Shown here piece after piece: positions 5,621-19,126 of a DNA stretch of 64,000 bases. This DNA comes from Vallitaleaceae bacterium 9-2 (lineage in GTDB: Bacteria > Bacillota > Clostridia > Lachnospirales > Vallitaleaceae): the NCBI GenBank assembly GCA_038396585.1, contig CP121691.1, positions 1,984,001 through 2,048,000 of the forward strand, given 5' to 3'. Each line of letters opens with the position of its first letter. The first letter of the stretch is position 1. The position numbers were made by a program, and so were the translations under genes. The notes beneath the pieces were generated by a model that saw only the letters and a program-made list of their open reading frames with translations, ran no database searches and was not told where the DNA came from.

Positions 5621-7009
5621 CTAAAAAGTAAAATGTTTTTCAAAATACGCTTTTAAATCATCAATTTTTATTCTCTCTTGTTCCATTGAATCACGGTGGC
5701 GAATGGTTACTGCTCCATCTTCAAGGGAATCAAAGTCATAGGTTATGCAAAAAGGTGTTCCGATTTCATCTTGTCGACGATAGCGCTTTCCAATTGATCC
5801 GCGATCATCATATTCTGTATTATATGTTTTTGATAAAGTTGTAAATAGCTCTGTTGCTTGTTCTCCAAGTTTTTTTGATAAGGGCATGACCGCTAATTGT
5901 ACCGGAGCTAAGGCCGGGTGAAAACGTAATACAGTACGCGTGTCACCACCATCAAGCTCTTCTTCGTCATATGCTGCACACAAAAATGCAAGCGTTACAC
6001 GATCAGCTCCCAAGGAGGGTTCGATACAATATGGAATATATTTTTCTTTTTTCTGATCATCAAAATATGTCATATCTTGACCACTTTGGGTTTGATGTGC
6101 TTTAAGGTCAAAATCTGTTCGATCGGCAATTCCCCAAAGCTCACCCCAACCAAATGGGAACATGAATTCAATATCACTTGTTGCATTACTATAGTGCGAT
6201 AGCTCTTCTTCACTATGATCGCGAATACGCATTTCAGCTTCTTTAATTCCAAGGTCTTGAAGCCATTTTATACAGAAGTTTTTCCAGTATTCAAACCATT
6301 CTAAATCGGTTCCTGGTTCACAGAAAAACTCAAGCTCCATCTGTTCAAATTCTCGCGTTCTAAAGGTGAAGTTCCCCGGTGTAATTTCATTACGGAAAGA
6401 TTTACCTACCTGTCCAATACCAAAAGGTATCTTTTTACGACTCGTGCGTTGCACATTTTTAAAGTTTACAAAAATCCCTTGTGCTGTTTCCGGGCGAAGA
6501 TAAATCGTATTCGATGCATCTTCTGTAACCCCTTGGAATGTTTTAAACATTAGATTGAATTGTCGAATATCTGTAAAGTTATGTGCACCACAACTTGGAC
6601 AGTTGATATTATGCTCGTCAATATATGCTTTCATTGCTTCGTTAGACCATGAATCCACTGCGTCTTCCGGCTCAATGCCAGCTGCTTTCATGGATTCTTC
6701 AATTAATTGATCTGCCCGAAAACGTTCTTTACATTCTTTACAGTCCATTAGAGGATCGTTAAATCCACCAACATGACCTGATGCTACCCATACTTGCGGG
6801 TTCATTAAAAGCGCACAATCCACTCCAACATTATATGGACTTTCTTTGATGAATTTTTGCCACCACGCTTTTTTAACATTGTTTTTTAGTTCAACACCTA
6901 AAGGACCATAGTCCCAAGTGTTTGCCAAACCTCCATAGATTTCTGATCCAGGATAAACAAAACCTCTTGCTTTTGCTAAAGCAACAACTTTTTCCATTGT
7001 TTTTTCCAT
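5621..7009 (-). CDS. glyS: Glycyl-tRNA synthetase, alpha2 (single-chain) type
   Basis: Charges tRNA-Gly with glycine. The 462-residue chain is the dimeric class II enzyme found in eukaryotes and many Gram-positive bacteria, not the alpha2beta2 GlyQ/GlyS form. Seen: [20 protein letters not shown] at the N-terminus (glycine pocket), [25 protein letters not shown] (class II motif 2 region), [10 protein letters not shown] and the C-terminal anticodon-binding domain starting near [11 protein letters not shown] CxxC pair (CKECKERF) and CPSC are present in the insertion. An AGGAAA site lies about 10 bases before the first ATG; the second ATG (codon 5) would be too far away. Expression is controlled by the upstream glycine T-box. 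Confidence 0.97.
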
Positions 7010-7037
7010 AATTATTATTTCCTTTCTAAAAATAACA

Positions 7038-7245
7038 CAAAAAAAGCAATCCTACGCCCTAACAAGGGACGAATTGATTGCTCACTCCGCGGTTCCACCC
7101 TAATTGATACAACTTGTATCCTCTTAGTTTTTATTGCTCAAAAGCGCCTTTCATCCGTTACTTGTCCTAGTTCACACTATCCTAGAATCACTGTATTCAA
7201 GCCAATCAAATTACTCTTCTTTCTCAATGCAATTATTATGTTTTA
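7038..7245 (-). ncRNA. T-box riboswitch leader, glycine specific
   Basis: Leader RNA that senses uncharged tRNA-Gly and controls glyS by antitermination. On the minus strand the invariant T-box AGGGTGGAACCGCGG lies at 7087-7101. It is followed by a terminator hairpin whose outer arms are AGCAATC / GATTGCT (7045-7082), ending in a run of seven T. Stem I is upstream; its base pairs GAAAG with CTTTT, and the specifier on the 3' side reads GGC (7148 to 7146), a glycine codon followed by a purine. This matches the downstream synthetase. The specifier assignment rests on my manual folding. Confidence 0.93.
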
Positions 7246-7258
7246 AAATCACTTGAAG

Positions 7259-7298
7259 TATATCATATGTTTCATCAAGACGTCAACCCGATAAAGTA
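7259..7298 (-). promoter_or_regulatory. Promoter of the glycine T-box / glyS transcript
   Basis: On the minus strand TTGACG is followed after 18 bases by TATACT, about 20 bases before the start of the T-box stem I region. Both hexamers are close to sigma-A consensus. It lies between the preceding coiled-coil protein gene and glyS, so glyS has its own transcript. Confidence 0.7.
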
Positions 7299-7314
7299 AG
7301 ACTATTGAATAATT

Positions 7315-8073
7315 TTATTCAAGTAGGCTTTTTACATATGCTTCGGTTCCATTTTCTGTTATCTGTTGAAGCGCTTGCTTATGAGGATAGGCTTCAACTG
7401 CTCCTACGGATTGCTCTAGTGCACCAAACATTCGAAGTATTCGGCTATGGGCATATTGATCGGTTTCAGATAATCCCTCCATTTGCTTTAGCTCAACTTG
7501 AACTTCTCCTAAACGTTGAACAATTTGAGCATACTCTTCATCCGAACGCTCCATCGCATTTGAGCTATCCATTAGGCTACTATAGTTCATAAGGTCTCCA
7601 TACTTCGCCATGATTGCTTCAAGCTGATGATTGTATGTATTTGTTGTGACTTGACCTGCTTCTATGAATCCAGTCAGTTCATTTACTGCTGTCTCAAATT
7701 CCGACAAAGCCACTTGACTTTTCAAAAGCATATAATGATAATCTAGCAGTTCAATAAAGAGTTTTACACGCTTTTCATGTTCCTTATTCATATCTTCCAT
7801 GACTTGACGATGTATATTGGAAAACTCAAGCTCCAGTGTATCAAAATCTTTGTCTAAGGATTGAACAAATTCCGGATAATTCTCCATGGATATGTTGGCT
7901 TCAAAAAAATCGCGTTCTTTTGAAATAGCGCTTGCCAATTCTTCGATAAGTACTTCCATCATTTGTGATGTTCTAGACGCCCTTGTAGCTTCTTGATTCC
8001 AAAAAAATCCGATGACGCCTAATCCTATTAATATAACACTGACTATCAGAATAATTGTCGTTTGTTTTTTCAT
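7315..8073 (-). CDS. Membrane-anchored coiled-coil protein of unknown function
   Basis: I do not recognise a family. The 252-residue protein starts with a lysine-containing N-terminus and one hydrophobic segment (IILIVSVILIGLGVIGFFW, about residues 7-25) that would act as an uncleaved anchor. The remainder is highly helical, rich in Glu, Gln and Leu, without cysteines, and looks like extracytoplasmic coiled coil. The start follows the recO stop by 3 bases, with the AAGGAT site embedded in the recO end, so it is co-translated with recO. It sits between recO and glyS, where clostridia often carry uncharacterised small membrane genes. Role unknown. Confidence 0.85.
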   Translation of the reverse strand: MKKQTTIILIVSVILIGLGVIGFFWNQEATRASRTSQMMEVLIEELASAISKERDFFEANISMENYPEFVQSLDKDFDTLELEFSNIHRQVMEDMNKEHEKRVKLFIELLDYHYMLLKSQVALSEFETAVNELTGFIEAGQVTTNTYNHQLEAIMAKYGDLMNYSSLMDSSNAMERSDEEYAQIVQRLGEVQVELKQMEGLSETDQYAHSRILRMFGALEQSVGAVEAYPHKQALQQITENGTEAYVKSLLE

Positions 8074-8076
8074 AAT

Positions 8077-8739
8077 TTATCCTTCGTCATCTAGTAATCC
8101 AACAAAATCAAGAGATTTATAGTTACCGCCAATATAATAGTTAAAATATCGATCAATCACCCTTGTGATTTCTTCGAAACGCTGTTGCTCAATCCTAAAA
8201 TGATATAATCGTCCAATCTTAACCCGTTGCATAAAGCCCAAGATTGCAAGGGCTTCTTGGGATATACCTGTCGCATCTTGCGACAAATCTGGTTCAAAAC
8301 CTAAAGTTGAAAGTGAACGAAATTCAAAGACGCGTCGAATCACTTCTGGTGTTTGGGTTTTCTTTTTTAGCGCTGTAAGGGTTGCATACAGCAATCTTAA
8401 TAATTCTTTATTTGGATCCATTTCTTGAATAACCTGTCCACACACTTCTAAAAAATAAAGCCCATAATATAAACTTTTTAAATCTTCCCTTAGACTATAA
8501 AAGGTCTCCGTGATATCAACTTGCTTTAAGGTATAGCTGTTTTTTCCTTCATATAAATGAAATTCCCCAAAAACAAAGGGTTGCGTTCCTGCTAATAGGC
8601 TACTTTTAGAGCGTTTAGCACCATTAGCAAAAACAACCATTTTCCCATAATCAATCGAAAAAAGCAAAATGCGCTTATCTTGTTCTTTTATGGGCATCTC
8701 ATGCAGTACGATCCCTTTTGTTTTAATCAGCGTTGGCAT
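8077..8739 (-). CDS. recO: DNA repair protein RecO (short form)
   Basis: RecO anneals single strands and, with RecF/RecR, loads RecA at gaps. The N-terminal OB fold is plain: KTKGIVLHEMPIKEQDKRIL, then YGKMVVFANGAKRSKSS, and PFVFGEFHLYEGKNSYTLKQ. The helical C-terminal domain follows (YYGLYFLEVCGQ..., FEFRSLSTLGFEPDLS). At 220 residues it is about 30 shorter than common Gram-positive RecO, and the CxxC...CxxC zinc cluster that usually follows the GFEP segment is missing; only one Cys remains in the protein. A GAGGTGA site precedes the ATG. It is 26 bases after trpS and directly precedes the coiled-coil gene. Identification is good. Confidence 0.92.
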   Translation of the reverse strand: MPTLIKTKGIVLHEMPIKEQDKRILLFSIDYGKMVVFANGAKRSKSSLLAGTQPFVFGEFHLYEGKNSYTLKQVDITETFYSLREDLKSLYYGLYFLEVCGQVIQEMDPNKELLRLLYATLTALKKKTQTPEVIRRVFEFRSLSTLGFEPDLSQDATGISQEALAILGFMQRVKIGRLYHFRIEQQRFEEITRVIDRYFNYYIGGNYKSLDFVGLLDDEG

Positions 8740-8765
8740 GTACTCACCTCAATACTTTATATTGT

Positions 8766-9770
8766 CTATATTATGAAACCAACTTTTTTCTTTACTTTTC
8801 GAAGTGTCTTTTCTGCTAAATAGGATGCACGTTCACTATTGGTTCGAATGATATCATCAATATATTTTTTATCGTTCATCAATCGGTGAAATTCATCTTG
8901 GATTGGTTTTAATTCATTAATTGTTACTTCTGCAACGCTCTCTTTTAATTGTCCGTAATTTTTCCCTTCAAAAAAGGCCAATGCTTGTTCAACACTTTCA
9001 CCTGTTCCACAGCAATATAGATCAATTAAGTTTTTGACCCCCGGTTGTTCTTCACTATAATTAATAATACCTACAGAGTCAGTTACCGCTCTTTTAATCT
9101 TATTGTTTAAAACATTCGGTTCATCGAGTAAGGACAACGTTGCATTAGGATTGGCATCCGATTTTGACATTTTTGCACTTGGATCTTGTAAGCTCATAAT
9201 TCGTGCGCCAACTTTCCCAAAATATGGTTCCGGTATGGTAAACGTATCGCTAAATGTATGATTAAAGCGTTGGGCTATGTCTCTTGTTAATTCCAAGTGT
9301 TGCTTTTGATCTGCACCAATGGGGACAACATCGGCTTGAAACAGTAAAATATCTGCTGCCATCAACACCGGATATGTATATAACCCAGCATTGATATTGC
9401 TTTCATTTTTTAAGGATTTCTCCTTAAATTGCGTCATTCTATTAAGTTCTCCCATGTATGTAAAACACCCTAATATCCATGAAAGTTCTGCATGTTGACG
9501 CACGTGTGATTGGGGATAGATAATGTTTTTTACCGGATCTAATCCAGTGGCGATATATAAAGCCACCAGCTCTCGAGTGCGGTGTCTAAGTTTTGCTGGT
9601 TCTTGTCTAACGGTAATCGAATGCAAGTCAACTACACAATAAATGCTTTCATACATATCTTGCATTTGAGCCCAGTTTTTTAATGCACCATAATAATTTC
9701 CAATTGTGATGTTTCCAGATGGTTGTACACCACTAAAAATACGTTGTTTCTTTTCAACTACTTCACTCAT
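8766..9770 (-). CDS. trpS: Tryptophanyl-tRNA synthetase
   Basis: Class I synthetase that charges tRNA-Trp; 334 residues is typical. The HIGH-equivalent is PSGNITIGNYYGAL (about residues 17-30) and the second ATP motif is KMSKSD (about residue 200), both intact. Other family landmarks are VDLHSIT, GLDPVKNIIYPQS and PIGADQKQHLELTRDIA. The site AGAGGTG lies 7 bases before the ATG. No T-box was seen upstream. It heads the trpS-recO-coiled-coil gene cluster on this strand. Confidence 0.97.
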   Translation of the reverse strand: MSEVVEKKQRIFSGVQPSGNITIGNYYGALKNWAQMQDMYESIYCVVDLHSITVRQEPAKLRHRTRELVALYIATGLDPVKNIIYPQSHVRQHAELSWILGCFTYMGELNRMTQFKEKSLKNESNINAGLYTYPVLMAADILLFQADVVPIGADQKQHLELTRDIAQRFNHTFSDTFTIPEPYFGKVGARIMSLQDPSAKMSKSDANPNATLSLLDEPNVLNNKIKRAVTDSVGIINYSEEQPGVKNLIDLYCCGTGESVEQALAFFEGKNYGQLKESVAEVTINELKPIQDEFHRLMNDKKYIDDIIRTNSERASYLAEKTLRKVKKKVGFII

Positions 9771-9838
9771 TTTTGCACCTCTTTTTTATTTTCGTTCTAT
9801 CCTATAGGCTAAAGCCTTCTATAATGACAATTGAGACA

Positions 9839-9867
9839 ATTTTAGCATATAGTCTAAATACTGTAAA
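9839..9867 (-). promoter_or_regulatory. Candidate promoter for trpS
   Basis: On the minus strand TTTACA (9862-9867) and TAAAAT (9839-9844) are separated by 17 bases, about 70 bases before the trpS ATG. Five of six positions match consensus in each hexamer. Confidence 0.6.
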
Positions 9868-9895
9868 GATTCTAATTTATTTTCGCTACGTTTAA

Positions 9896-9904
9896 TGCTA
9901 TACT
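9896..9904 (+). promoter_or_regulatory. Extended -10 promoter element for the phosphoesterase gene
   Basis: TGCTATACT is an extended -10 (TGnTATACT) located 48 bases before the ATG at 9952; the -35 is poor. The same nine bases recur before the AP2-domain gene (38682-38690). Confidence 0.5.
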
Positions 9905-9951
9905 ATAAGTTGTACTATCTAAAACACGCTTAACATTTTGAAAGGATTTTT

Positions 9952-10680
9952 ATGAAAATACTTGTTGTTGCAGATGAAGAATCCACTTACCTATGGGATT
10001 ATTATGACGAAAAACTCTTTAAGGATATCGATTTGATTATCTCTGCCGGAGATCTCAAATCAAAATACCTTTCATTTTTAACAACGGTTTCCGGTCTTCC
10101 TGTATACTATGTTCCCGGAAACCATGACTATCAATATGAAACACAGCCTCCTTATGGTTGTGATAGCATTGATGATCGTATTTTTGTGCACAAAAATCTA
10201 CGTATCCTTGGACTCGGCGGTTCATTTCGATATAAGTCAGGCCTCTATCAATACTCCGAAAGAGAAATGCAGCGACGCATTCGTCATCTAAATGTTATGA
10301 TACGTCAATTTGGCGGGGTAGACATTCTCGTAACCCATGCCCCTGCTCTTGGCCATGGAGATGGAGACGATTTATGTCACCGAGGATTTGACGCATTTAA
10401 TAAATTCATTGATAAGTACGCCCCTTCGTATTTTATTCATGGACATCAACATTTGACATACTCTAGAAGTATTCAACGCCTCTCAAAAATAAAGGATACG
10501 AATGTTATTAATGGATATAATTACTATCTTTTTGAATATGAAGACAATAATAAGCAGCTTAATGAAATGAATTTCTTCCAAAAGCTGCTTAATACTATTG
10601 TCTTTTATTTTAAATATTCTAGAACGCCCATTATGAAGAATTATCGTGCCTACAAAAAACATCTCAAAAAAAATCAATAA
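9952..10680 (+). CDS. Calcineurin-like metallophosphoesterase
   Basis: A 242-residue cytoplasmic metal-dependent phosphoesterase; its substrate cannot be told from sequence. Ordered motifs: VVADEES (motif I), SAGDLKSKY (motif II), PGNHDYQ (motif III), THAP followed by HGDGDD (motif IV), and the final IHGHQH (motif V). Motif I normally reads DxH; here it is DxE (residues 8-10), so one metal ligand is replaced by glutamate. The C-terminal 60 residues are basic and outside the catalytic fold. AAAGGA precedes the ATG. Its stop overlaps the stop of the convergent ParB/BMP gene by 7 bases. Confidence 0.88.
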   Translation: MKILVVADEESTYLWDYYDEKLFKDIDLIISAGDLKSKYLSFLTTVSGLPVYYVPGNHDYQYETQPPYGCDSIDDRIFVHKNLRILGLGGSFRYKSGLYQYSEREMQRRIRHLNVMIRQFGGVDILVTHAPALGHGDGDDLCHRGFDAFNKFIDKYAPSYFIHGHQHLTYSRSIQRLSKIKDTNVINGYNYYLFEYEDNNKQLNEMNFFQKLLNTIVFYFKYSRTPIMKNYRAYKKHLKKNQ

Positions 10681-12626
10681 CGCTTTTTTACACTCATAAG
10701 TTCTAATAAGGGATGATTTTTTTCTAACGCATTAATGGATGGAATAGAACCTAATACACCATCAACAAACCAATTCATTGTTAAAATATCACTTGGATGC
10801 AGCGTCTTACCCGGGGCCAACTTTTCATTACCTTTTTGGTCAATTAGCGGCCCTCGAAATGGGTGATATTCACCTTGTATAATCATCATTTTCATAAACT
10901 CGACTGATTCACATAAAGAATATGGAATACTTGATTGAGAATAAAAAATGTCGACAACTTCTGTGTCCATTCCCCACCAATAGTTGATAGCCTTATCTGT
11001 AATTCCCATCGTACTGGAAAGCCGGTTATAGGAACCATTCATAATATTTCGAACGATTTTTTCATAGAATTCTCCCCAGTTCCACATCGGCGTCGCCAAA
11101 TAATTTCTACGTTCACTTTGTGATTCTTCATCAACAAAATAGATCCCAGAATTGTTAAGCTTTGATGTTGATTTTGACGATTCCTGATGCGAGATGATGT
11201 CGACGCCCATATCCATTAACTGTCGATTAATATCATAGGTTTCTTCCGAAAAGTCCGTCTTATAATTAGTAACCCATTTCACTTGGACGCTCGCGTAAGG
11301 ATTGACAAAACGCGCCCCCAATGTAAACGCATTAATGCTACTAATCACTTCCGGTATTGGATACGTGACAACATAACCCAAATTATTGGTTTTTGTCATT
11401 GCTCCGGCAATCATTCCCACCAAAAAATTCGGTTCATAAAAACGCCCAAAATACGTTCGTACATTTTTTGAAGAAAAATTTTCCGAACAATTTAAGAACT
11501 TAATATTACGGTATTCAACGGCCGCTTTTAGCGTTTGATTAATAAAGGTCGGACTCGTCGTAAAGATCACATCAAACCCTTCATCAGCCGCTTTTTTGAT
11601 ATATTCATATGCACTCTCATCTTCGGGCACATCATTAAATGCCTTTGTTTCAATCTGTCCCTTAAAGACATCTTCTAGATGTAGACGTCCGATTTCATGG
11701 CCATAAGTCCACACCGATTTTTCAGAAGATTTTGAATGTATAAATGCAATACGTATATCCTTCATTGTTGATGCAAAATTAGTTAGTCCATCTAAAAATG
11801 AACGCTTCTCAACACCATCTGAGTCAATTTCAAGTGCAACCTGCTCTTCATTGGAAAGAAGCTCAAGTTCCGTCCAAATATTTTTCAAATCTTTTTGAAC
11901 GTCTTCTGCCCCTTTGCTCTCAATCTCTGGATATATCTCTAAATACTTGACCAACGCATCGGCTGTTGTAATTTCTAAATTATTGCCGCCTAGGTCATGA
12001 TATATTTTGCGAAAACGATAGTAGATGGACTCAAACGCACTTAATCTCTTAATCCATTTATGACGTACAAGTAATGTGTATAATTGATTAAACCCATCTT
12101 TTTTTGACATCCACAAATAGTTTATTTTTGTTTTTTTATAGAACTCTAAAAACTCATAATAAATCACTATGGTTTCATCTTCCGGATCATATTTAGGTAT
12201 AATTCGCGTCACATCTGCCGTAATTAATACTGCATCATAATATTTTAAGACAGACACACGTTTATTGCCTTCTTCAACATAAAACCAATTCAAATATTCG
12301 TATACCTTGATTGCATCACGAATCCCCTCGTTTAAATGTGCTTCGCATAGATTAGTCCATTTCGAACCAAATTCTGTTTTTCTTAATAGCAAAGGCATAA
12401 AATTAGGTGCAAATGAGGATGCGCGTCCAATTGTTTTTGTTCCTTTTATTTTACGTATCGGAATTTCCATCGTTCCAAGATAAACCTCAGAGACCACAGA
12501 TTCCTTTGCTGTTATTGTATCTAATGCCGGTAAGTATGGATTTTTACCACTAAACTTATGGCTGTTATACTCTTTTAACCCTTTTTTTCTTGCATTTTCA
12601 TACAAGTTCAGAATCTCTTCACGCAT
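10674..12626 (-). CDS. Fusion of a ParB/sulfiredoxin-like domain with a BMP (PnrA-type) ligand-binding domain
   Basis: A 650-residue protein without signal peptide or lipobox. Residues about 45-140 resemble the ParB/Srx fold: EIPIRKIKGTKTIGRA, then VEEGNKRVSVLKYYDA near residues 117-132, matching the conserved GxxR..A.....G segment of ParB-type proteins. Residues about 285-610 resemble the basic membrane protein/PnrA nucleoside-binding family: IRIAFIHSKSSEKSVWTYG, GFDVIFTTSPTFI, FGRFYEPNFLVGMIAGAMTK and GYVVTYPIPEV. PnrA proteins are normally secreted lipoproteins of ABC importers; this one appears cytoplasmic, with no transporter genes near. Start: AAAGGA lies 7 bases before the ATG at 12626; the upstream ATG at 12662 overlaps a TATAAT and is rejected. 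Function unknown; a nucleoside-like ligand sensor is a guess. Confidence 0.82.
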   Translation of the reverse strand: MREEILNLYENARKKGLKEYNSHKFSGKNPYLPALDTITAKESVVSEVYLGTMEIPIRKIKGTKTIGRASSFAPNFMPLLLRKTEFGSKWTNLCEAHLNEGIRDAIKVYEYLNWFYVEEGNKRVSVLKYYDAVLITADVTRIIPKYDPEDETIVIYYEFLEFYKKTKINYLWMSKKDGFNQLYTLLVRHKWIKRLSAFESIYYRFRKIYHDLGGNNLEITTADALVKYLEIYPEIESKGAEDVQKDLKNIWTELELLSNEEQVALEIDSDGVEKRSFLDGLTNFASTMKDIRIAFIHSKSSEKSVWTYGHEIGRLHLEDVFKGQIETKAFNDVPEDESAYEYIKKAADEGFDVIFTTSPTFINQTLKAAVEYRNIKFLNCSENFSSKNVRTYFGRFYEPNFLVGMIAGAMTKTNNLGYVVTYPIPEVISSINAFTLGARFVNPYASVQVKWVTNYKTDFSEETYDINRQLMDMGVDIISHQESSKSTSKLNNSGIYFVDEESQSERRNYLATPMWNWGEFYEKIVRNIMNGSYNRLSSTMGITDKAINYWWGMDTEVVDIFYSQSSIPYSLCESVEFMKMMIIQGEYHPFRGPLIDQKGNEKLAPGKTLHPSDILTMNWFVDGVLGSIPSINALEKNHPLLELMSVKKRY

Positions 12627-12660
12627 CGTATAATCCTTTCCAAAAAAATATTCTCTTTTC

Positions 12661-12666
12661 ATTATA
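12661..12666 (-). promoter_or_regulatory. -10 element of the ParB/BMP fusion gene
   Basis: A perfect TATAAT on the minus strand 35 bases before the chosen start; the -35 region is poor (TTTTAA at 17 bases). It overlaps an alternative ATG and so helps decide the start. Confidence 0.45.
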
Positions 12667-12745
12667 CTCTATTTCAACCGTTATTAAAAGGATGGATAGA
12701 CAACTCTCCTAAAATATGATTAAATAATAGGAAGGAGGAATGACA

Positions 12746-13222
12746 ATGAATAAAATACCAAGTTTTACTGTAAATCACTTGATTTTAGAACCAGGCGTTT
12801 ACGTCTCAAGAATAGATCAGCTCGACCAACACTATATTACCACCTATGATTTGAGGATGAAAAAGCCAAACGCCGAACCTGTTATAAACACTGGTGAACT
12901 TCATACTCTTGAACATTTGGGTGCTACTTTTTTACGCAATCATCCACAATTTAAAGAAGAAGTCATCTACTTTGGTCCTATGGGCTGTCGAACAGGCTAT
13001 TATCTTATTTTAAAAGGTGAACGTTCTTCAAATGAAATTGTTCCCCTGCTTATTGATCTCTATCAATTTATGGCTGATTTTGACGGAGAGGTTCCCGGTG
13101 CCAGTGCAAAAGACTGTGGCAACTATCATGATATGAATCTTCCCATGGCAAGATATGAAGCAAAAGCTTATCTTCATGTTTTAAAACATATCACCAGCAA
13201 GCAACTAAGCTATCAAGAATAA
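12746..13222 (+). CDS. luxS: S-ribosylhomocysteine lyase LuxS
   Basis: Cleaves S-ribosylhomocysteine to homocysteine and DPD, the precursor of autoinducer-2, in the activated methyl cycle. With 158 residues it has all key residues: metal ligands His53 and His57 in ELHTLEHL, Cys123 in DCGNYHDMN, the catalytic Glu56, and Cys80 in GPMGCRTGYY. Start: the AAGGAGG site at 12732-12738 ends one base before an in-frame ATG at 12740, too close, but 7 bases before the ATG at 12746, which I chose. No pfs (SAH nucleosidase) gene is adjacent. Its 3' end overlaps the convergent TraX-like gene by 18 bases. Confidence 0.97.
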   Translation: MNKIPSFTVNHLILEPGVYVSRIDQLDQHYITTYDLRMKKPNAEPVINTGELHTLEHLGATFLRNHPQFKEEVIYFGPMGCRTGYYLILKGERSSNEIVPLLIDLYQFMADFDGEVPGASAKDCGNYHDMNLPMARYEAKAYLHVLKHITSKQLSYQE

Positions 13223-13873
13223 TTTAATTAAATACAAGAGAGCTAAGTGGAAGGGATAAATCAAATAAAATACGTATTTGATGCCCTTCCCTTTTTTTCC
13301 ATTATACATAAATACAAAGATTGCGCTTAACCCCGCATAAATCTCTAGGACAACTGTCGCTCCCGCTAATAAGTTAAGTCCTGCCAACAACACATTCATT
13401 GTAATAATCACAATGGCCTTGCCTTTTAACGTCTTGGTTTGATATAGGATAAAAATCAGCAATACACCAAACAATCCATAATCTGTTCTTAATACATCCG
13501 CCAAAAGCGCCAATAAATAGACGCCTCCAATGCTTAACCAGCGGTGCCGCTCGTGCCATGTTTCATAAATCCACAAACATAGCAAACCAATAAGGAGTGT
13601 AAAGAATATATTTTGATGGGACAAATCCCAAGGGTTGTTATAAAAAGCTAAATTAAAGGGAATCTCTGATACAAGTGCAAAAACACCTAAACGCAGTGCA
13701 TATTTTTTCTTGTCATGTGTATGCGAAAAACCTTCGGTAAGTAAAAACGCAAAAATCGGAAACGCTATACGTCCAATGATGCGAAAAAGAACATATTCTT
13801 TAAAAAGCACTGCGCCTACATGGTCAATGATCATTGTAATAATTGCAATCCACTTTAACTGGTTACTTGTCAT
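13205..13873 (-). CDS. TraX family membrane protein
   Basis: A 222-residue polytopic membrane protein with about seven hydrophobic segments. The N-terminus (LKWIAIITMIIDHVGAVLF, then RIIGRIAFPIFAFLLTEGF and a conserved HT.....YALRL) matches the TraX family. F-plasmid TraX N-acetylates pilin; chromosomal clostridial copies have no known substrate and may be acyltransferases. The ATG lies one base beyond the stop of the upstream chemoreceptor gene, whose last codons contain the AAGGAG site, so translation is coupled. No plasmid or transfer genes are nearby. Confidence 0.88.
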   Translation of the reverse strand: MTSNQLKWIAIITMIIDHVGAVLFKEYVLFRIIGRIAFPIFAFLLTEGFSHTHDKKKYALRLGVFALVSEIPFNLAFYNNPWDLSHQNIFFTLLIGLLCLWIYETWHERHRWLSIGGVYLLALLADVLRTDYGLFGVLLIFILYQTKTLKGKAIVIITMNVLLAGLNLLAGATVVLEIYAGLSAIFVFMYNGKKGKGIKYVFYLIYPFHLALLYLIKLFLIA

Positions 13874-13874
13874 C

Positions 13875-15212
13875 TTATTCTCCTTTTGCTTTTAAAGCTC
13901 TACGATGAAGGCGTTTAATGTCTCCTAGATACTTAACCACATCCGCTGATGCTTGGTCCATCTCTTCTAACAATTCATTTGCTCTATCTTTATTGCCCTG
14001 ATTGTATGCTTGCACCGCTTCCTTTGCATGTTTATGTAATTGTTCATGAGGCTTTTCCAATGCACTGATTTTTTTACAGATATCTTGATTTTCCACTTCG
14101 GCATGATCACACCATTGTCCCAAACGGCACGTATGATGCGTCCCTATCTCTGATGCATCAAGTGATTCATAGCCCAAAATCATATTATATACTCTCCATT
14201 TCCATAACAAATGATCACTAATACACACTTCTAGTTGTGTAATAAGATCAAGTTGTGGTTGAGTTTTTAAAATATCGGTTCGAATATCATCAATAACTTT
14301 TGAAACCGCATGAAAAGCCATGCCTGTTTTATCGGTCTCTGTATGAATTACTTTTGTTTTTTCATTAACAAGCATGATCGCACTAGACATTTCTTGGGAC
14401 GCAGCTGTCTCTTCTTGTATATTGGCACTTATCTCCATAAATGTCTGACTAATATGATGCAGTCCATCTTTCATCTTTTCCATTCCAGAAAATGCTTTTT
14501 CCATTTGTTGCTTACTTTTTGAAAAAGAAGCATTTGATTCTTCAAGTGCATCATCTGTATTTTGAATTTCATGCGTTAGGTTGTTGACAACTTGCCGAAT
14601 AAAATCAACTTGTTCTTTTGTATTTTCTGCTAGTTTTTTTATTTCTTCAGCTACGACTGCAAATCCTCTACCGCTTTCTCCAGCACGGGCCGCTTCAATA
14701 GATGCATTGAGCGCAAGTAAATTCGTCTGATCAGCGACCCCTTTAATAATCGCAACCATTTCATTGATTTTTTCTGCTTCAGTATTAACGCGATTCATAA
14801 TTCCTTGAATATTTTTTGATTGTTCAAACGTCTCTTCAATTTGAACAAACGATTGATTAATTAAGTCTAAAGAATGATTAGACAGTTCCAAGGTATGATT
14901 TGTCTCTTCGGATGAGCGTTGTATAAAGTTAGAAATACCTTCAACCGTTGCTGTCATCTCTTCACTTGTGGTTGCAATACTATCAACCATCTCTGATTGC
15001 TGTCGAACATCTATTAACATATCCTTTACATAATCAAGTTCTGTGACATATTTTAGTAAACTATTGACTTGTTTTAAATATTCAACGGTTCTGTCTTTTT
15101 TTATGTCTTTCTTTACATCTTGATTAAGTAGCTCTTCTTGTAAGTTCAAAGGTAATTGTGTTTTACTTTCATTAAGCTCCAATGAGTTGCTTTTTCTTTT
15201 TTTCCAAAACAT
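13875..15212 (-). CDS. Soluble methyl-accepting chemotaxis protein with C-terminal zinc-binding (CZB) domain
   Basis: A 445-residue chemoreceptor without membrane segments. The middle contains the conserved kinase-control hairpin ([20 protein letters not shown], then [20 protein letters not shown]). The last 120 residues form a CZB domain: an early His in DHLLWKWRV, then [11 protein letters not shown], then [10 protein letters not shown], giving the His/Cys/His/His zinc set. CZB receptors sense zinc or zinc-liganding oxidants such as hypochlorous acid. Start: GGAGGTAGAAGT lies just before the ATG at 15212; an in-frame start 10 codons upstream (15242) overlaps that site and is rejected. Coupled to the TraX-like gene. 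Confidence 0.93.
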
Positions 15213-15263
15213 ACTTCTACCTCCTTCATATTTTAATTGCATTTTATCATATAGGTAGACAAA

Positions 15264-15296
15264 AAAGAAGCTTTTTCAAAATGAAAAAGCTTCTTT
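15264..15296 (-). terminator. Rho-independent terminator of purL
   Basis: A 15-bp perfect stem (15264-15278 with 15282-15296, loop of 3) lies 15 bases after the purL stop and, on the minus strand, ends in a T-run. It separates purL from the chemoreceptor gene. Confidence 0.88.
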
Positions 15297-15310
15297 GAAG
15301 AATGTATCTA

Positions 15311-18300
15311 TTATAGAAAATACTGTACGCCTGACTTAAAGAGTTGTTGATCTTGTTTTCCATAAATATTTTTGGCAACATGTTGACCAATACGTTCAGA
15401 ATGTCCCATTTTTCCTAAGACACGCCCGTCTAAACTCATTATTCCTTCAATCGCATACATTGAACCATTTGGATTATCTATAGGGTTCATCGTTGCTTGT
15501 CCTTCTTCATTGACGTAAGTTGTAACCACCTGACCATTTTGGAAAAGTTCCTTAATGACGGCATCGCTGGCTACAAATCTACCTTCCCCATGAGATAAGG
15601 GAATATGATGAATATCTCCCGGAGTAACATTTTGCAACCAAGGTGATTGATTGGACATGATTTTAGTCCTTGCCATCTTGGATATATGTCGTCCGATAGT
15701 ATTATAGGTTAATGTTGGCGCATCCGCCGTCAACTCTCGAATGTCACCATACGGAACTAAGCCTAACTTTATAAGTGCTTGGAAGCCGTTACAAATACCT
15801 AGCATTAGACCATCACGTTGATTAAGCAAGTCCATTACCGCTTCTGAAACCGCTTCGTTTCTAAAGACTGTTGCAATAAACTTCCCTGAACCATCCGGCT
15901 CGTCTCCCGCACTAAATCCACCTGGAATCATGATCATCTGACTCGATCGAATCGCTTGAACAAACTCTTGAACTGATTGCTTTACCATCGATGGCGTCAA
16001 GTTTCTAAAAACAACTTCTTCAACATCTGCCCCTGCTTTTTCAAAAGCTCTACGTGTGTCATATTCACAGTTAGTTCCTGGAAAAACCGGAACAAAAACT
16101 TTAGGTTTTGCTACTTTATGTTTGCATATATATATTGAGGAAGCCGATGTCAACTGATCAGAAGTCTTACCTTGGCTGTCTTCAACTGTCGGAAATACAT
16201 CTTCAAGAACTTCTTCCCAATGCCCTTGCAATTCATCAATAGGTATACTTGTTTGCTTATATGTAATCTTAGGCAGTACGGATGTACGCCCTAATTTTAT
16301 TGCTGTACTTGGAAGCTTATAATCACTCATTGGATTTTTAAGTTCTAGTATAATGGAGCCATAAGAAGAGGCAAATATTTTCTCATCCTCAAGGGCTTCA
16401 AAGGTAAAACCTATTCGGTTACCAAATCCCATTTTCACGACTGCTTCTGCGGCTCCAAACTGACCTACACTATTTGCAGATAATATTGTTCCGCTATTAA
16501 TCGCATCAAAAATCCATGTATAATTAGATTTTAATACATCAATGACCGGAAGGTCATGGGCATCTCTTGGTAATTCAACCATAACAACATCATGATCGCC
16601 CGCTTTAAACTCATTAGAGACAACTGTTGTTACATCCACAACATCCACTGCAAAAGAAACCAAAGTCGCCGGAACATCAATATCATGGAATGTTCCTGAC
16701 ATAGAGTCCTTGCCGCCAATAGATGCAAGTTTTAGTTGTTCTTGAATATAATATGCTCCCAGTAATGCAGATAATGGCTCTCCCCATCGCTTAGGGTCGT
16801 TACCTAATCGCTTAAAGTATTCTTGGAATGTAAAGCGCATCTTTTTATAATCTGCCCCTACAGCCACGCCTTTTGCGATGGAATCAACCACTGCATAAAC
16901 CGCTCCATGATATGGGCTCCAGCTAGACAAATATGGATTGTAGCCATAACTCATCACCGTTCCTGTTGTGGTTTCTCCATGAAGCACTGGAATTTTTGCA
17001 ACCATGGCTTCCATAGGGGTTGTTTGATATTTCCCACCAAAAGGCATAAATACAGACCCTGCACCAATTGATGAGTCAAAGTGTTCTATTAACCCTTTTT
17101 GAGAGCAACTATTTAAATCTGCTACCGCACGAACAAAACTTTCCTTATACCCTTGTTGCTGAGTAAGCGTTTTAACCTGTTCACGTTCTTGTTCAAAATA
17201 GCTTTGGGCATCTGGTGCTGATACATAGGCTTTCATCTCAACTAAAGCTCCGTTTGTATCGAGAAAATCTCTACGAATATTGACAATCTCTTGACCTTTC
17301 CATGTCATAATCAAACGTTTTTCTTCGGTAACCGTTGCCACATGCGTTGCTTCTAAATTTTCTTTTTCAACAAGTTCAATAAATTTTTGCTTATCTTTAG
17401 GATCAATCACCACCGCCATACGCTCTTGGGATTCAGAGATTGCCAGTTCTGTTCCGTCTAAGCCATCATATTTTTTGGGGACAACATCCAAATCAATAAT
17501 AAGTCCATCGGCGAGTTCACCAATAGCCACAGAAATACCACCTGCACCAAAATCATTACATTTTTTTATCATTTGACTTACGGTTTCATTTCTAAATAAT
17601 CGCTGTATTTTTCGTTCGGTTGGCGGATTACCTTTTTGTACTTCTGCACCACATGTGTGGATTGATTCTGCTGTATGCTCCTTAGATGAGCCTGTCGCAC
17701 CTCCACAACCATCACGTCCTGTGCGACCACCAAGTAAGATAATATAATCGCCTGGATCAGAGGTTTCACGAATAACGTTTTTCTTAGGTGCTGCTGCAAT
17801 AACCGCACCTATTTCCATACGTTTTGCCACATAATTTGGATGATAAATTTCACGAACCAATCCGGTCGCCAATCCAATTTGGTTTCCATATGAACTGTAT
17901 CCATGCGCACTTTTTGTTACGATTTTGCGTTGTGGTAATTTTCCTTCCATCGTCTGACTAATCGCCACCCTTGGATCAGCGGCCCCTGTCACACGCATGG
18001 CTTGATATACATATGAACGTCCAGATAACGGGTCGCGAATCGCCCCACCTAGACAAGTTGCAGCTCCACCAAAAGGTTCGATTTCTGTTGGATGGTTGTG
18101 TGTTTCATTTTTGAACATCACCAACCACTCTTCGTTCTTTCCGTCAACATCCACATCCACCATTATACTACATGCGTTAATCTCATCAGATACTTCCAAG
18201 TCATCAAGATGACCTTCTCTACGCATTTTTTTCATCGCCATTAAGGCGATATCCATGAGACATATGGGTTTTTCATTTAACCGTTCTCCATATATCGCTT

Positions 18301-19081
18301 CCCGATCCGTCAAATATTGGTCATATGTTTTTTTGATCGGTTCTATACCTGCATTTTCATCAAATTCGATATCTTTTAATTGGGTTAAAAACGTTGTATG
18401 ACGGCAATGATCTGACCAATATGTATCTAAAGCACGAATTTCTGTAATTGTCGGATTTCTTTTTTCAACACATCTAAAATAATTTTGCGTGTGTAACAAA
18501 TCTTTGTTTGTCATGGCTAATCCAAGATTATCCCATAATTTATCAATGCCTTTTTCATCTAAGTCAATAAATCCTTCAACCTGTTCCACTGCATGAGGAA
18601 CCTCATAATCTAATTCCAATGTTGTCGGTTTATCTAAGTCTGCTTCACGTGAATCCACTGGATTAATGCAATATTTTTTTATACGTTCCAAATCCTTTGT
18701 AGGTATATTGCCTGATAATACGATTATTTTTGCCACACTGACAATCGGATTTGCATCACTCTCAATAAGTTGAATACACTGCACTAAGGAATCGCTTCGT
18801 TGATCATATTGCCCAGGTAAATATTCGATTCCAAAAGCAACCTCATCTTCTTGTAATGCATAATTTTCTATATAGACATCATCCACTGTCGGTTCCGAAT
18901 AAATTGTATCAATACTTCGTTGGTAGATTGCTTCACTTAGATGGTCAGTATCATATCGATGCAAAATCCGTACATTCGTTATGTTTTTCAGATTTAAGTT
19001 TTCTGTTAAATCCGCATGCAATTGTTTTGCCTCAACATCAAATCCTACTTTTTTTTCTACAAAAATTCGTTTTATTGCCAT
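15311..19081 (-). CDS. purL: Phosphoribosylformylglycinamidine synthase, single-chain form
   Basis: Fourth step of purine synthesis: FGAR + glutamine + ATP to FGAM. The 1256-residue chain fuses the PurS-like, PurL and PurQ-like parts. Seen: an N-terminal PurS-like region (KRIFVEKKVGFDVEAKQL), the FGAM synthase core with YWSDHCRHTTF, FKNETHNHPTEIEPFGGAA and LLGGRTGRDGCGGATGSS, a second AIRS-type half (LGNDPKRWGEPLSALLGAY, GGKDSMSGT), and a C-terminal class I glutaminase with PGTNCEYDTRR, GGFSAGDEPDGSGK, the nucleophile Cys in GICNGFQAL and LSHGEGRF. Start: GGAGG lies 6 bases before the ATG at 19081; an in-frame ATG 7 codons upstream (19102) has no ribosome site. A LysR-type gene is divergent. 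Confidence 0.97.
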   Translation of the reverse strand: MAIKRIFVEKKVGFDVEAKQLHADLTENLNLKNITNVRILHRYDTDHLSEAIYQRSIDTIYSEPTVDDVYIENYALQEDEVAFGIEYLPGQYDQRSDSLVQCIQLIESDANPIVSVAKIIVLSGNIPTKDLERIKKYCINPVDSREADLDKPTTLELDYEVPHAVEQVEGFIDLDEKGIDKLWDNLGLAMTNKDLLHTQNYFRCVEKRNPTITEIRALDTYWSDHCRHTTFLTQLKDIEFDENAGIEPIKKTYDQYLTDREAIYGERLNEKPICLMDIALMAMKKMRREGHLDDLEVSDEINACSIMVDVDVDGKNEEWLVMFKNETHNHPTEIEPFGGAATCLGGAIRDPLSGRSYVYQAMRVTGAADPRVAISQTMEGKLPQRKIVTKSAHGYSSYGNQIGLATGLVREIYHPNYVAKRMEIGAVIAAAPKKNVIRETSDPGDYIILLGGRTGRDGCGGATGSSKEHTAESIHTCGAEVQKGNPPTERKIQRLFRNETVSQMIKKCNDFGAGGISVAIGELADGLIIDLDVVPKKYDGLDGTELAISESQERMAVVIDPKDKQKFIELVEKENLEATHVATVTEEKRLIMTWKGQEIVNIRRDFLDTNGALVEMKAYVSAPDAQSYFEQEREQVKTLTQQQGYKESFVRAVADLNSCSQKGLIEHFDSSIGAGSVFMPFGGKYQTTPMEAMVAKIPVLHGETTTGTVMSYGYNPYLSSWSPYHGAVYAVVDSIAKGVAVGADYKKMRFTFQEYFKRLGNDPKRWGEPLSALLGAYYIQEQLKLASIGGKDSMSGTFHDIDVPATLVSFAVDVVDVTTVVSNEFKAGDHDVVMVELPRDAHDLPVIDVLKSNYTWIFDAINSGTILSANSVGQFGAAEAVVKMGFGNRIGFTFEALEDEKIFASSYGSIILELKNPMSDYKLPSTAIKLGRTSVLPKITYKQTSIPIDELQGHWEEVLEDVFPTVEDSQGKTSDQLTSASSIYICKHKVAKPKVFVPVFPGTNCEYDTRRAFEKAGADVEEVVFRNLTPSMVKQSVQEFVQAIRSSQMIMIPGGFSAGDEPDGSGKFIATVFRNEAVSEAVMDLLNQRDGLMLGICNGFQALIKLGLVPYGDIRELTADAPTLTYNTIGRHISKMARTKIMSNQSPWLQNVTPGDIHHIPLSHGEGRFVASDAVIKELFQNGQVVTTYVNEEGQATMNPIDNPNGSMYAIEGIMSLDGRVLGKMGHSERIGQHVAKNIYGKQDQQLFKSGVQYFL

Positions 19082-19126
19082 GATAACCTCCAAATTATCC
19101 ATATTGACGTTATTTACAAATCTACT

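Follow-up and report, generated by a model that had tools for sequence, protein, structure and literature searches.

Domains of the BMP family (PF02608) are normally exported binding proteins, and where periplasmic-binding-type domains serve as cytoplasmic sensors they do so mainly in LacI-like regulators. Fusions of the ParB-CTPase fold (PF02195) to other domains were surveyed by Kaljevic et al. 2025 (PMC12704722); according to its main text, archaeal ParB-CBS fusions couple the ParB fold to an adenosyl-ligand sensor, and binding of CTP, ATP or GTP was observed for 11 of the 28 ParB-fold proteins purified. The gene described here lies in a 64,000-nucleotide stretch of the genome of Vallitaleaceae bacterium 9-2 (contig CP121691.1, positions 1,984,001 to 2,048,000), referred to below as the window and numbered from its first base. 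It encodes a single protein in which a predicted ParB/sulfiredoxin (Srx)-like core is followed by a helical domain and a BMP/PnrA-type domain, and its 3' end overlaps that of a metallophosphoesterase gene. The anatomy of this fusion and, in the genomes sampled, its near-constant pairing with the phosphoesterase point to an undescribed two-protein regulatory system. The features of the locus are listed with the evidence for each.

10674-12626, minus strand: fusion gene (ParB/Srx-like core, helical domain and BMP/PnrA domain); open reading frame (ORF) of 650 aa plus stop
12195-12497, minus strand: predicted ParB/sulfiredoxin-fold core, residues 44-144; N-domain model, VIA-align and PDB profile matches
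12258-12269, minus strand: P motif GxxR of the ParB fold (Box II), G120-N-K-R123; G120 and R123 invariant in 51 of 51 aligned fusions
11853-12194, minus strand: helical domain, residues 145-258; aligned with the helical domain of iron-sulfur (Fe-S) type relatives, where Pfam finds DUF4032
11757-11852, minus strand: low-confidence linker, residues 259-290; structure model, with hydropathy too low for a membrane span
10737-11756, minus strand: BMP/PnrA-type ligand-binding domain, residues 291-630, AtzT/3s99 branch; PF02608, PDB phmmer and VIA-align
12634-12639, minus strand: Shine-Dalgarno-like AAAGGA for the start at 12626; 7 nt upstream of the ATG, read from the sequence
9952-10680, plus strand: calcineurin-like metallophosphoesterase, 242 aa, with D-x-E for D-x-H; PF00149 (E 6.5e-11), co-occurrence and adjacency
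10674-10680, no strand: overlap of the 3' ends, 7 bases, of the convergent genes; same -7 spacing in loci L001 and L002

Anatomy and occurrence of the fusion

The fusion ORF is intact on the minus strand from 12626 down to 10674. An alternative in-frame ATG is present at 12662, 12 codons 5' of the assigned start; the ATG at 12626 was preferred because the AAAGGA box lies upstream of it and because homologous fusions start close to it in the alignment. This alignment held 51 of 57 sequences, L001, L017, L040, L041, L043 and L051 being omitted as near copies, cut off or frameshifted. The full-length model had a mean predicted local distance difference test (pLDDT) score of 82.2. A survey of fusion conservation, which the first-pass annotation of this DNA had proposed as a check, was made by scanning genome contigs, and both halves were found to recur together across 56 loci, mainly in Clostridia by record title but also in metagenome-assembled genomes of Spirochaetes and Thermotogota; loci L047 and L051 were cut by contig ends. 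Defluviitalea phaphyphila (L005) and Caloramator proteoclasticus (L012), both harmless, are among the hosts of the system. The N-domain profile matched 25 of 245 genomes of the class, comprising 23 fusions and 2 partial ParB-like matches, and both halves were in a single frame in all 23 class genomes checked. In the bacterium's own family, 10 of 19 genomes matched over both halves. A second, divergent ParB/Srx-BMP fusion of 593 aa was observed in the same-genus genome G245 (L115:3629-5410), where the genes preceding it encode a Cache-GGDEF-EAL protein and a methyltransferase.

The N-terminal half was modelled separately as residues 1-269 (pLDDT 91.4; predicted TM-score 0.84). VIA-align gave top Z scores for the core with Srx 6ky4 (8.2), Noc 7ol9 (8.1) and ParB 7bnk (8.1), the best Z spanning 81 residues at about positions 48-144 of the model. 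Among the first 34 rows, 31 were named ParB, Noc, KorB, Srx, SerK, SbnI, Spo0J or PadC and the other 3 were uncharacterised or Osa (1vk1, 2hwj, 4ovb), unrelated proteins appearing from row 35. The best Foldseek matches of the same model were Noc (E 8e-5), sulfiredoxin (E 1.1e-3, with a TM-score of 0.63 by sulfiredoxin's own length) and ParB (E 3.6e-3). Since a structural Z near 8 is weak by itself, sequence bridges were sought. No ParB match was found in the N-terminal half by single-sequence Pfam, PDB sequence search or narrow profiles, and HHalign of the N-domain alone against ParB gave E 0.05-0.08; in all HHalign runs given here two alignments are compared with each other and no database is involved. 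In the PHROGs search a single ParB-like family matched 4 of the 18 members tested (best E only 0.054), and one of the 18 matched the unnamed family phrog_5523 (E 3.7e-5). PF02195 matched neither the window protein nor any of the 18 members; its best scores in relatives were 18.5 bits (L081) and 18.2 bits (L136) against a cut-off of 26.3, and the sole PF02195 match of the genome was a different gene.

The similarity emerged with a core profile built from a 15-row alignment that included divergent relatives lacking the BMP half. Searched against the PDB, all 14 matches with E up to 1 were ParB/Srx proteins (E 4e-4 to 0.89), the best being sulfiredoxin (4e-4), Spo0J (0.0022), Noc (0.0044) and SbnI (0.0096). 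HHalign of the core against the canonical ParB of 25 loci gave a probability (Prob) of 95.8 and E 7.5e-9, compared with a best E of 0.076 in 20 column shuffles, and removal of one ParB_N-like row left Prob 94.4 and E 8.8e-8. All 25 canonical ParBs were also picked up by the core profile, with E between 4.6e-8 and 0.0037, and no unrelated neighbour protein did better than 0.36. Judged by model and profile, the core is a member of the ParB/Srx (ParB-CTPase) fold superfamily, its sequence similarity being visible only through divergent relatives. The ParB-like stretch first noticed in the sequence (VEEGNKRVSVLKYYDA, residues 117-132) falls in a fold that structure searches and relative-including profiles both recover, and the absence of ParB/Srx similarity from profile searches, named beforehand as the outcome that would count against it, was not what was found once the divergent relatives were included.

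The glycines and arginines G62, R68, G120 and R123 were retained in 26 of 26 core rows. The Box III P motif of canonical ParB was not visible in the fusion alignment. The motif name GxxR (P motif) is that of PMC12704722, and Box III is described in its main text as often absent or divergent in orphan or non-canonical ParBs. No helix-turn-helix (HTH) family matched the window protein or the 18 members, and only weak structural rows of this kind were seen. Residues 32-235 of the window protein aligned with the Fe-S type relatives by HHalign at Prob 98.3 and E 1.9e-14; the helical part alone was weak against them (E 0.0016, Prob 16), and Pfam gave no DUF4032 match in the window protein.

The second half matched PF02608 with E 7.1e-32 and 111 bits against a cut-off of 24.1, in agreement with the PnrA-like motifs reported for it earlier. 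By phmmer, AtzT (6pi5) was the closest PDB sequence at E 1.7e-51, followed by 3s99 from Brucella at E 5.3e-43 and, at 9.8e-8 and weaker, by other BMP proteins. VIA-align agreed, giving Z 36.1 for AtzT (319 residues, 2.3 A) and 35.6 for 3s99 versus about 24-27 for nucleoside binders. By sequence and model, the BMP half is therefore nearest to the purine-base binders AtzT and 3s99 and not to the nucleoside-binding PnrA, such that the earlier assignment to the BMP family stands, with nucleoside-binding PnrA as a less close relative. A sub-threshold Pfam match to T4 glucosyltransferase (E 2.9e-4, below cut-off) falls inside this half and was discarded. The text of PMC6834077 gives dissociation constants for AtzT of 0.11 uM with guanine and 2.5 uM with adenine. 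Its AtzT contact residues were mapped onto the 51 fusions with the numbering fitted by an offset of 5. The position of Tyr45 was Trp (W306) in 51 of 51 fusions, that of Ser97 was Ser in 43 of 51, that of Glu165 was Glu or Asp in 42 of 51, and that of Trp194 (residue 455) was Trp, Tyr or Phe in 44 of 51.

Export was judged by hydropathy, not by a signal-peptide predictor. Over the first 60 residues, the maximal 19-residue Kyte-Doolittle mean was 1.05 across the 56 loci versus 1.86 in the exported BMP paralogue of the same genome, and a signal-peptide-like segment was seen in 0 of 56 loci. This bears out the earlier observation that signal peptide and lipobox are missing, and the homologues likewise revealed no cryptic signal-peptide-like segment in 56 of 56 loci. 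No linker resembling a membrane span separates the halves, the highest score among the 51 aligned proteins being 1.24. The fusion protein thus appears, from these sequence properties, to stay in the cytoplasm. Elsewhere in the genome there is an exported BMP lipoprotein with a phosphoribosyltransferase gene, an ATP-binding cassette (ABC) ATPase and two permeases, and since this lipoprotein has an ABC ATPase and permeases of its own, transport is served there. The corresponding region (L085:3591-8891), in which the phosphoribosyltransferase gene is followed by the lipoprotein and ABC transporter genes, is likely a purine uptake operon of the window genome. No ABC transporter gene was recognised by eye among the window ORFs of 90 aa or more at 6000-17500.

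The metallophosphoesterase partner and the BMP-less relatives

The neighbouring phosphoesterase, already pointed out in the first-pass annotation, is convergent with the fusion gene, and their 3' ends overlap by 7 bases (10674-10680). The reported position was correct, but the gene proved to be more than an incidental neighbour, co-occurring with the fusion even when unlinked. It was present within the locus in 49 of 56 fusion loci. Four of the other seven (L040, L046, L047, L051) end within 413 bases of the fusion gene, L016 and L024 lack a phosphoesterase in the vicinity, and in L055 the remaining 588 bases are occupied by a different gene; the genomes of L016, L024 and L055 all hold the phosphoesterase elsewhere (3 of 3, E 3e-87 to 3e-99). 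The two genes are mostly convergent, with the partner codirectional and downstream in L048 and codirectional and upstream in the Thermotogota loci L049, L050 and L054. In L030, L033 and L044 one gene, from a single cluster, lies between fusion and phosphoesterase; the intervening gene of L044 (9999-10895) belongs to the arginase family by Pfam.

Co-occurrence was then counted in two surveys. In the 245 genomes of the class, with the phosphoesterase subfamily counted at E up to 1e-15, the fusion was found in 23, the phosphoesterase in 25 and both in 22, and the genes were adjacent by coordinates (within about 0.5 kb) in 21 of the 22, of which 12 were convergent and 9 codirectional. In 398 genomes of the phylum, with the core counted at E up to 1e-12 and the phosphoesterase at E up to 1e-25, core and phosphoesterase were each found in 25 and both in 24. 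Adjacency by coordinates was observed for 20 of these 24, comprising 5 of the BMP type, 13 long and 2 short, one long-type genome (G334) being classed by coordinates and frame length only. Fisher p values for co-occurrence, which ignore shared ancestry, were 4e-27 in the class and 3e-36 in the phylum. The phosphoesterase is a near-obligate genomic partner of the fusion and co-occurs with it even when unlinked.

Of the 49 locus phosphoesterases, 46 passed the score cut for residue alignment. The metal-ligand set Asp8, Asp34, Asn57, His58, His129, His165 and His167 was retained, one row being gapped at Asp8. The His of the D-x-H motif was replaced by E, V, I, R or P, His being found in 0 of the 70 rows with a residue at this position, and these residues suggest that the enzyme is probably active but has a first metal site that is altered. 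In PDB profile searches it came closest to lariat debranching enzyme and MPPED2. PADLOC matched the phosphoesterase to its candidate model PDC-S10 (E 5.8e-12), as it did the phosphoesterase of L142 (E 3.7e-15), and gave no match for the fusion.

The N-terminal domain was also found without the BMP half. A 418-aa protein from another genome of the order (L116) was 31% identical to the window N-domain across 137 residues, with an E of 2e-14 for that one comparison. Its gene (L116:831-2655, minus strand, genome G261) adjoins a histidine-phosphatase-family gene, another phosphatase neighbour. Used as a query against the 398 genomes of the phylum, this relative found matches in 21, and in 16 of these the BMP half was absent (11 long and 5 short forms). 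In the 11 long non-BMP relatives and in L160, the phosphoesterase was immediately upstream and codirectional; the L142 enzyme and that of the window share 42% identity across 195 residues. Six long relatives were tested by Pfam, of which five had Fer4-type matches over cut-off and three of those five also DUF4032 over cut-off; proteins with DUF4032 are common in Actinomycetota and Chloroflexota. The short forms are stand-alone cores of 118-169 aa. Five stand-alone cores (L126, L128, L130, L131 and L187) are not beside a phosphoesterase; four of their five genomes hold one on another contig, and that of G553 (L131) fell below the cut. The N-terminal domain is therefore not specific to BMP, occurring also with a 4Fe-4S/Cys-rich tail or with no sensor. 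Because elsewhere in the phylum the core has a 4Fe-4S/Cys-rich tail where the fusion has BMP, its neighbour still being this phosphoesterase, the pair resembles a ParB/Srx-like hub and its enzyme, with a sensor that can be exchanged.

Upstream of the fusion in the window is a divergent luxS gene (S-ribosylhomocysteinase, 12740-13222, plus strand), 77 bases from the upstream ATG at 12662. It was considered as a functional neighbour and dropped, being present in only 2 of 56 other loci, the nearest relatives L001 and L002. A TraX-family gene follows (13205-13873, minus strand), and in 10 of 56 loci a member of its cluster is one of the two nearest genes on the upstream side of the fusion. A few genes upstream, at 15311-19102 (minus strand), there is a purine-synthesis gene encoding a phosphoribosylformylglycinamidine (FGAM) synthase, PurL-type by its Pfam domains. 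The promoter earlier ascribed to the fusion gene could not be shown, 17 promoter-like sites being counted versus 13.3 +/- 3.7 in shuffles. No terminator-like site was found in 9750-12900 and no parS-like site near the fusion gene, a single 3-mismatch site being present at 18641 (chance mean 0.46). A search for a shared upstream operator in 46 loci gave a small excess (matches p 0.03, palindromes p 0.01) with a crude shuffle, and an operator shared upstream of both genes is not convincing.

Proposed function and alternatives

We suggest, as the simplest account and with a probability of about one half, that the fusion acts in the cytoplasm as a sensor-regulator in concert with the adjoining phosphoesterase; we infer nucleoside triphosphate (NTP) binding by the core, the ligand and the direction of control. 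In this mechanism the ParB/Srx core would, like other proteins of its fold, bind NTP; a purine-like ligand would close the BMP lobes and shift the core between nucleotide states, and the state of the core would turn the phosphoesterase up or down. Alternatively, the state of the core may set the level of the phosphorylated substrate of the phosphoesterase. The BMP and Fe-S parts, responding to purine level and to redox or iron, respectively, would be exchangeable input modules on a common hub. A tentative extension, which we consider possible but well short of probable, is a hitherto undescribed modular signalling system in which exchangeable inputs (purine-binding BMP, 4Fe-4S/Cys-rich or none) act on a ParB/Srx-DUF4032-like hub that switches with NTP. 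The hub would control a metallophosphoesterase dedicated to it, or oppose that enzyme, possibly through making or guarding a nucleotide-type messenger hydrolysed by it. The one-piece sensor put forward in the first-pass annotation, a putative device in which nucleoside binding would alter a nucleotide- or DNA-acting domain, is plausible; as to DNA binding or nuclease action, nothing was found that favours either in particular.

Several observations weigh against the sensor-regulator. In structure comparisons the core reached a moderate Z of about 8 and its Foldseek TM-scores to ParB and Noc are low (0.2-0.3), which in the model is probably explained by a different placement of the helical part. 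In the main text of PMC12704722, 17 of 28 purified ParB-fold proteins are without detectable NTP binding. In the BMP half, the Glu165 position is non-acidic in 9 of 51 fusions, and the Asn218 and Asn220 positions are most often His (27 of 51) and Thr (25 of 51). Phe98 of AtzT contacts guanine via its backbone N-H (text of PMC6834077), and this position is Pro in 47 of 51 fusions, so that the N-H contact is lost. Because the Phe98, Asn218/Asn220 and Glu165 positions are altered, a purine-like ligand is no more than likely on sequence grounds, and guanine itself would be less so than a purine-like ligand generally. The Fe-S input is uneven among the long relatives, with a reduced Cys cluster by eye in L132, L134, L137 and L139 and no Fer4 match in L132. 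Nor is the pairing complete. The divergent fusion in G245 lacks an adjacent phosphoesterase, and in the class the phosphoesterase was found without the fusion in G080, G214 and G238 and the fusion without the phosphoesterase at cut-off in G101; G214, G238 and G274 have no core match at 1e-4, and G080 only a weak one. In the phylum, G553 has the core alone and G274 the phosphoesterase alone. Separate contigs carry core and partner in G172 of the class and in 4 of 24 phylum genomes (G289, G566, G587, G652).

Other accounts of the pair were weighed against this one. The two proteins could form a kinase-phosphatase pair, with the core a phosphotransferase like SerK, SbnI or sulfiredoxin under BMP or Fe-S control and the metallophosphoesterase removing the phosphate. 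An obligate phosphatase-type partner would fit, SerK (Z 6.7) and SbnI (Z 6.2) are among the structural neighbours of the core, and the SerK model weakly matches L132 (E 1.3e-4) and L149 (E 8.7e-4), both far below cut-off. However, the fusion itself gave no SerK match up to E 1, and a shared catalytic acid is not evident because the acidic DFD motif found in the loop after the first strand of the Fe-S type is absent from the BMP fusions. Entry titles of SerK structures name Glu30 as the mutated site. The histidine-phosphatase-family gene adjoining the BMP-less relative of G261 also fits but is a single case, and we regard this pair as rather unlikely. Neither protein need regulate the other if they merely share a pathway such as nucleotide salvage. 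Their convergent orientation in many genomes, which argues against a common mRNA, and their location on separate contigs in some would accord with this, but the adjacency outlasts changes of orientation and of the fused sensor, which a loose link explains less well, making a shared pathway alone quite unlikely.

The protein could also follow the layout of a LacI-like DNA regulator, which has an N-terminal DNA part and a C-terminal periplasmic-binding-like part; the ParB-type domain would then sit on DNA, the BMP half would bind the inducer, and purine genes and the phosphoesterase would be controlled. The closeness of Noc and KorB to the core in fold, the purine-synthesis gene a few genes upstream and the weak excess of upstream matches and palindromes are in keeping with such a role. 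Yet that excess is small and its shuffle crude, the family lacks an HTH match and the gene a nearby parS-like site, the helical domain has a mean net charge of about -2, and the same core also stands alone in forms of about 118-169 aa; we therefore consider DNA regulation of this kind unlikely. A transport protein with a lost or hidden export signal would be the expectation for a BMP domain, but is very improbable given 56 of 56 loci with no signal-peptide-like segment, the lack of a hydrophobic linker and of an ABC transporter gene recognised by eye among the window ORFs at 6000-17500, and the exported paralogue with its transporter elsewhere in the genome.

Comparison with known systems

In its C-terminal half the fusion resembles AtzT and 3s99 (Z 36.1 and 35.6), with the aromatic sandwich, the Ser and the acid mostly retained. 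It differs from them in having no export signal, in being fused, in the Pro in place of Phe98 and in the changed Asn218/Asn220 positions. With the LacI family it shares an N-terminal effector part and a C-terminal periplasmic-binding-like domain (fold neighbours at Z about 14); in contrast to that family, no HTH headpiece was found, a ParB/Srx fold takes its place, and the binding domain is of the BMP and not the sugar type. The free serine kinases SerK and SbnI have the ParB-like fold in common with it, and relatives L132 and L149 match the SerK profile weakly. A DGHHR-type motif is a further shared feature. Unlike SerK and SbnI, the fusion and its relatives carry BMP or Fe-S parts and pair with a metallophosphoesterase. 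Compared with calcineurin-like metallophosphoesterases (PF00149), this partner keeps the metal ligands except the His of D-x-H.

The surveyed ParB-CTPase fold fusions (PMC12704722) are like the window protein in fold, in the GxxR P motif and in being fused to other domains. The broadest survey of the fold that was found, it selected proteins, according to its main text, with PF02195 and TIGR00180 at their gathering thresholds, and the window protein has no PF02195 match. Since the ParB/Srx-like fusion family lies below the PF02195 cut-off, PF02195-based surveys would miss it. The main text, supplements excluded, contains no mention of Bmp, substrate-binding, periplasmic, metallophos, ferredoxin, DUF4032 or phosphoesterase. 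In openly licensed PMC text, without supplements, no description of the fusion or of the phosphoesterase pair and no mention of DUF4032 were found, and papers naming both PnrA and ParB have unrelated titles. A ParB-fold fusion is thus of a known kind, the BMP sensor is unusual, and the enzyme partner is unreported in the literature found. Here a BMP sensor is joined to a nucleotide-binding fold just recognised as a versatile switch, and the genomic pairing gives two proteins that are matched only by broad domain families a joint, testable role. With a shared hub and two different input domains, working out the mechanism once would account for a group of systems that spans several phyla.

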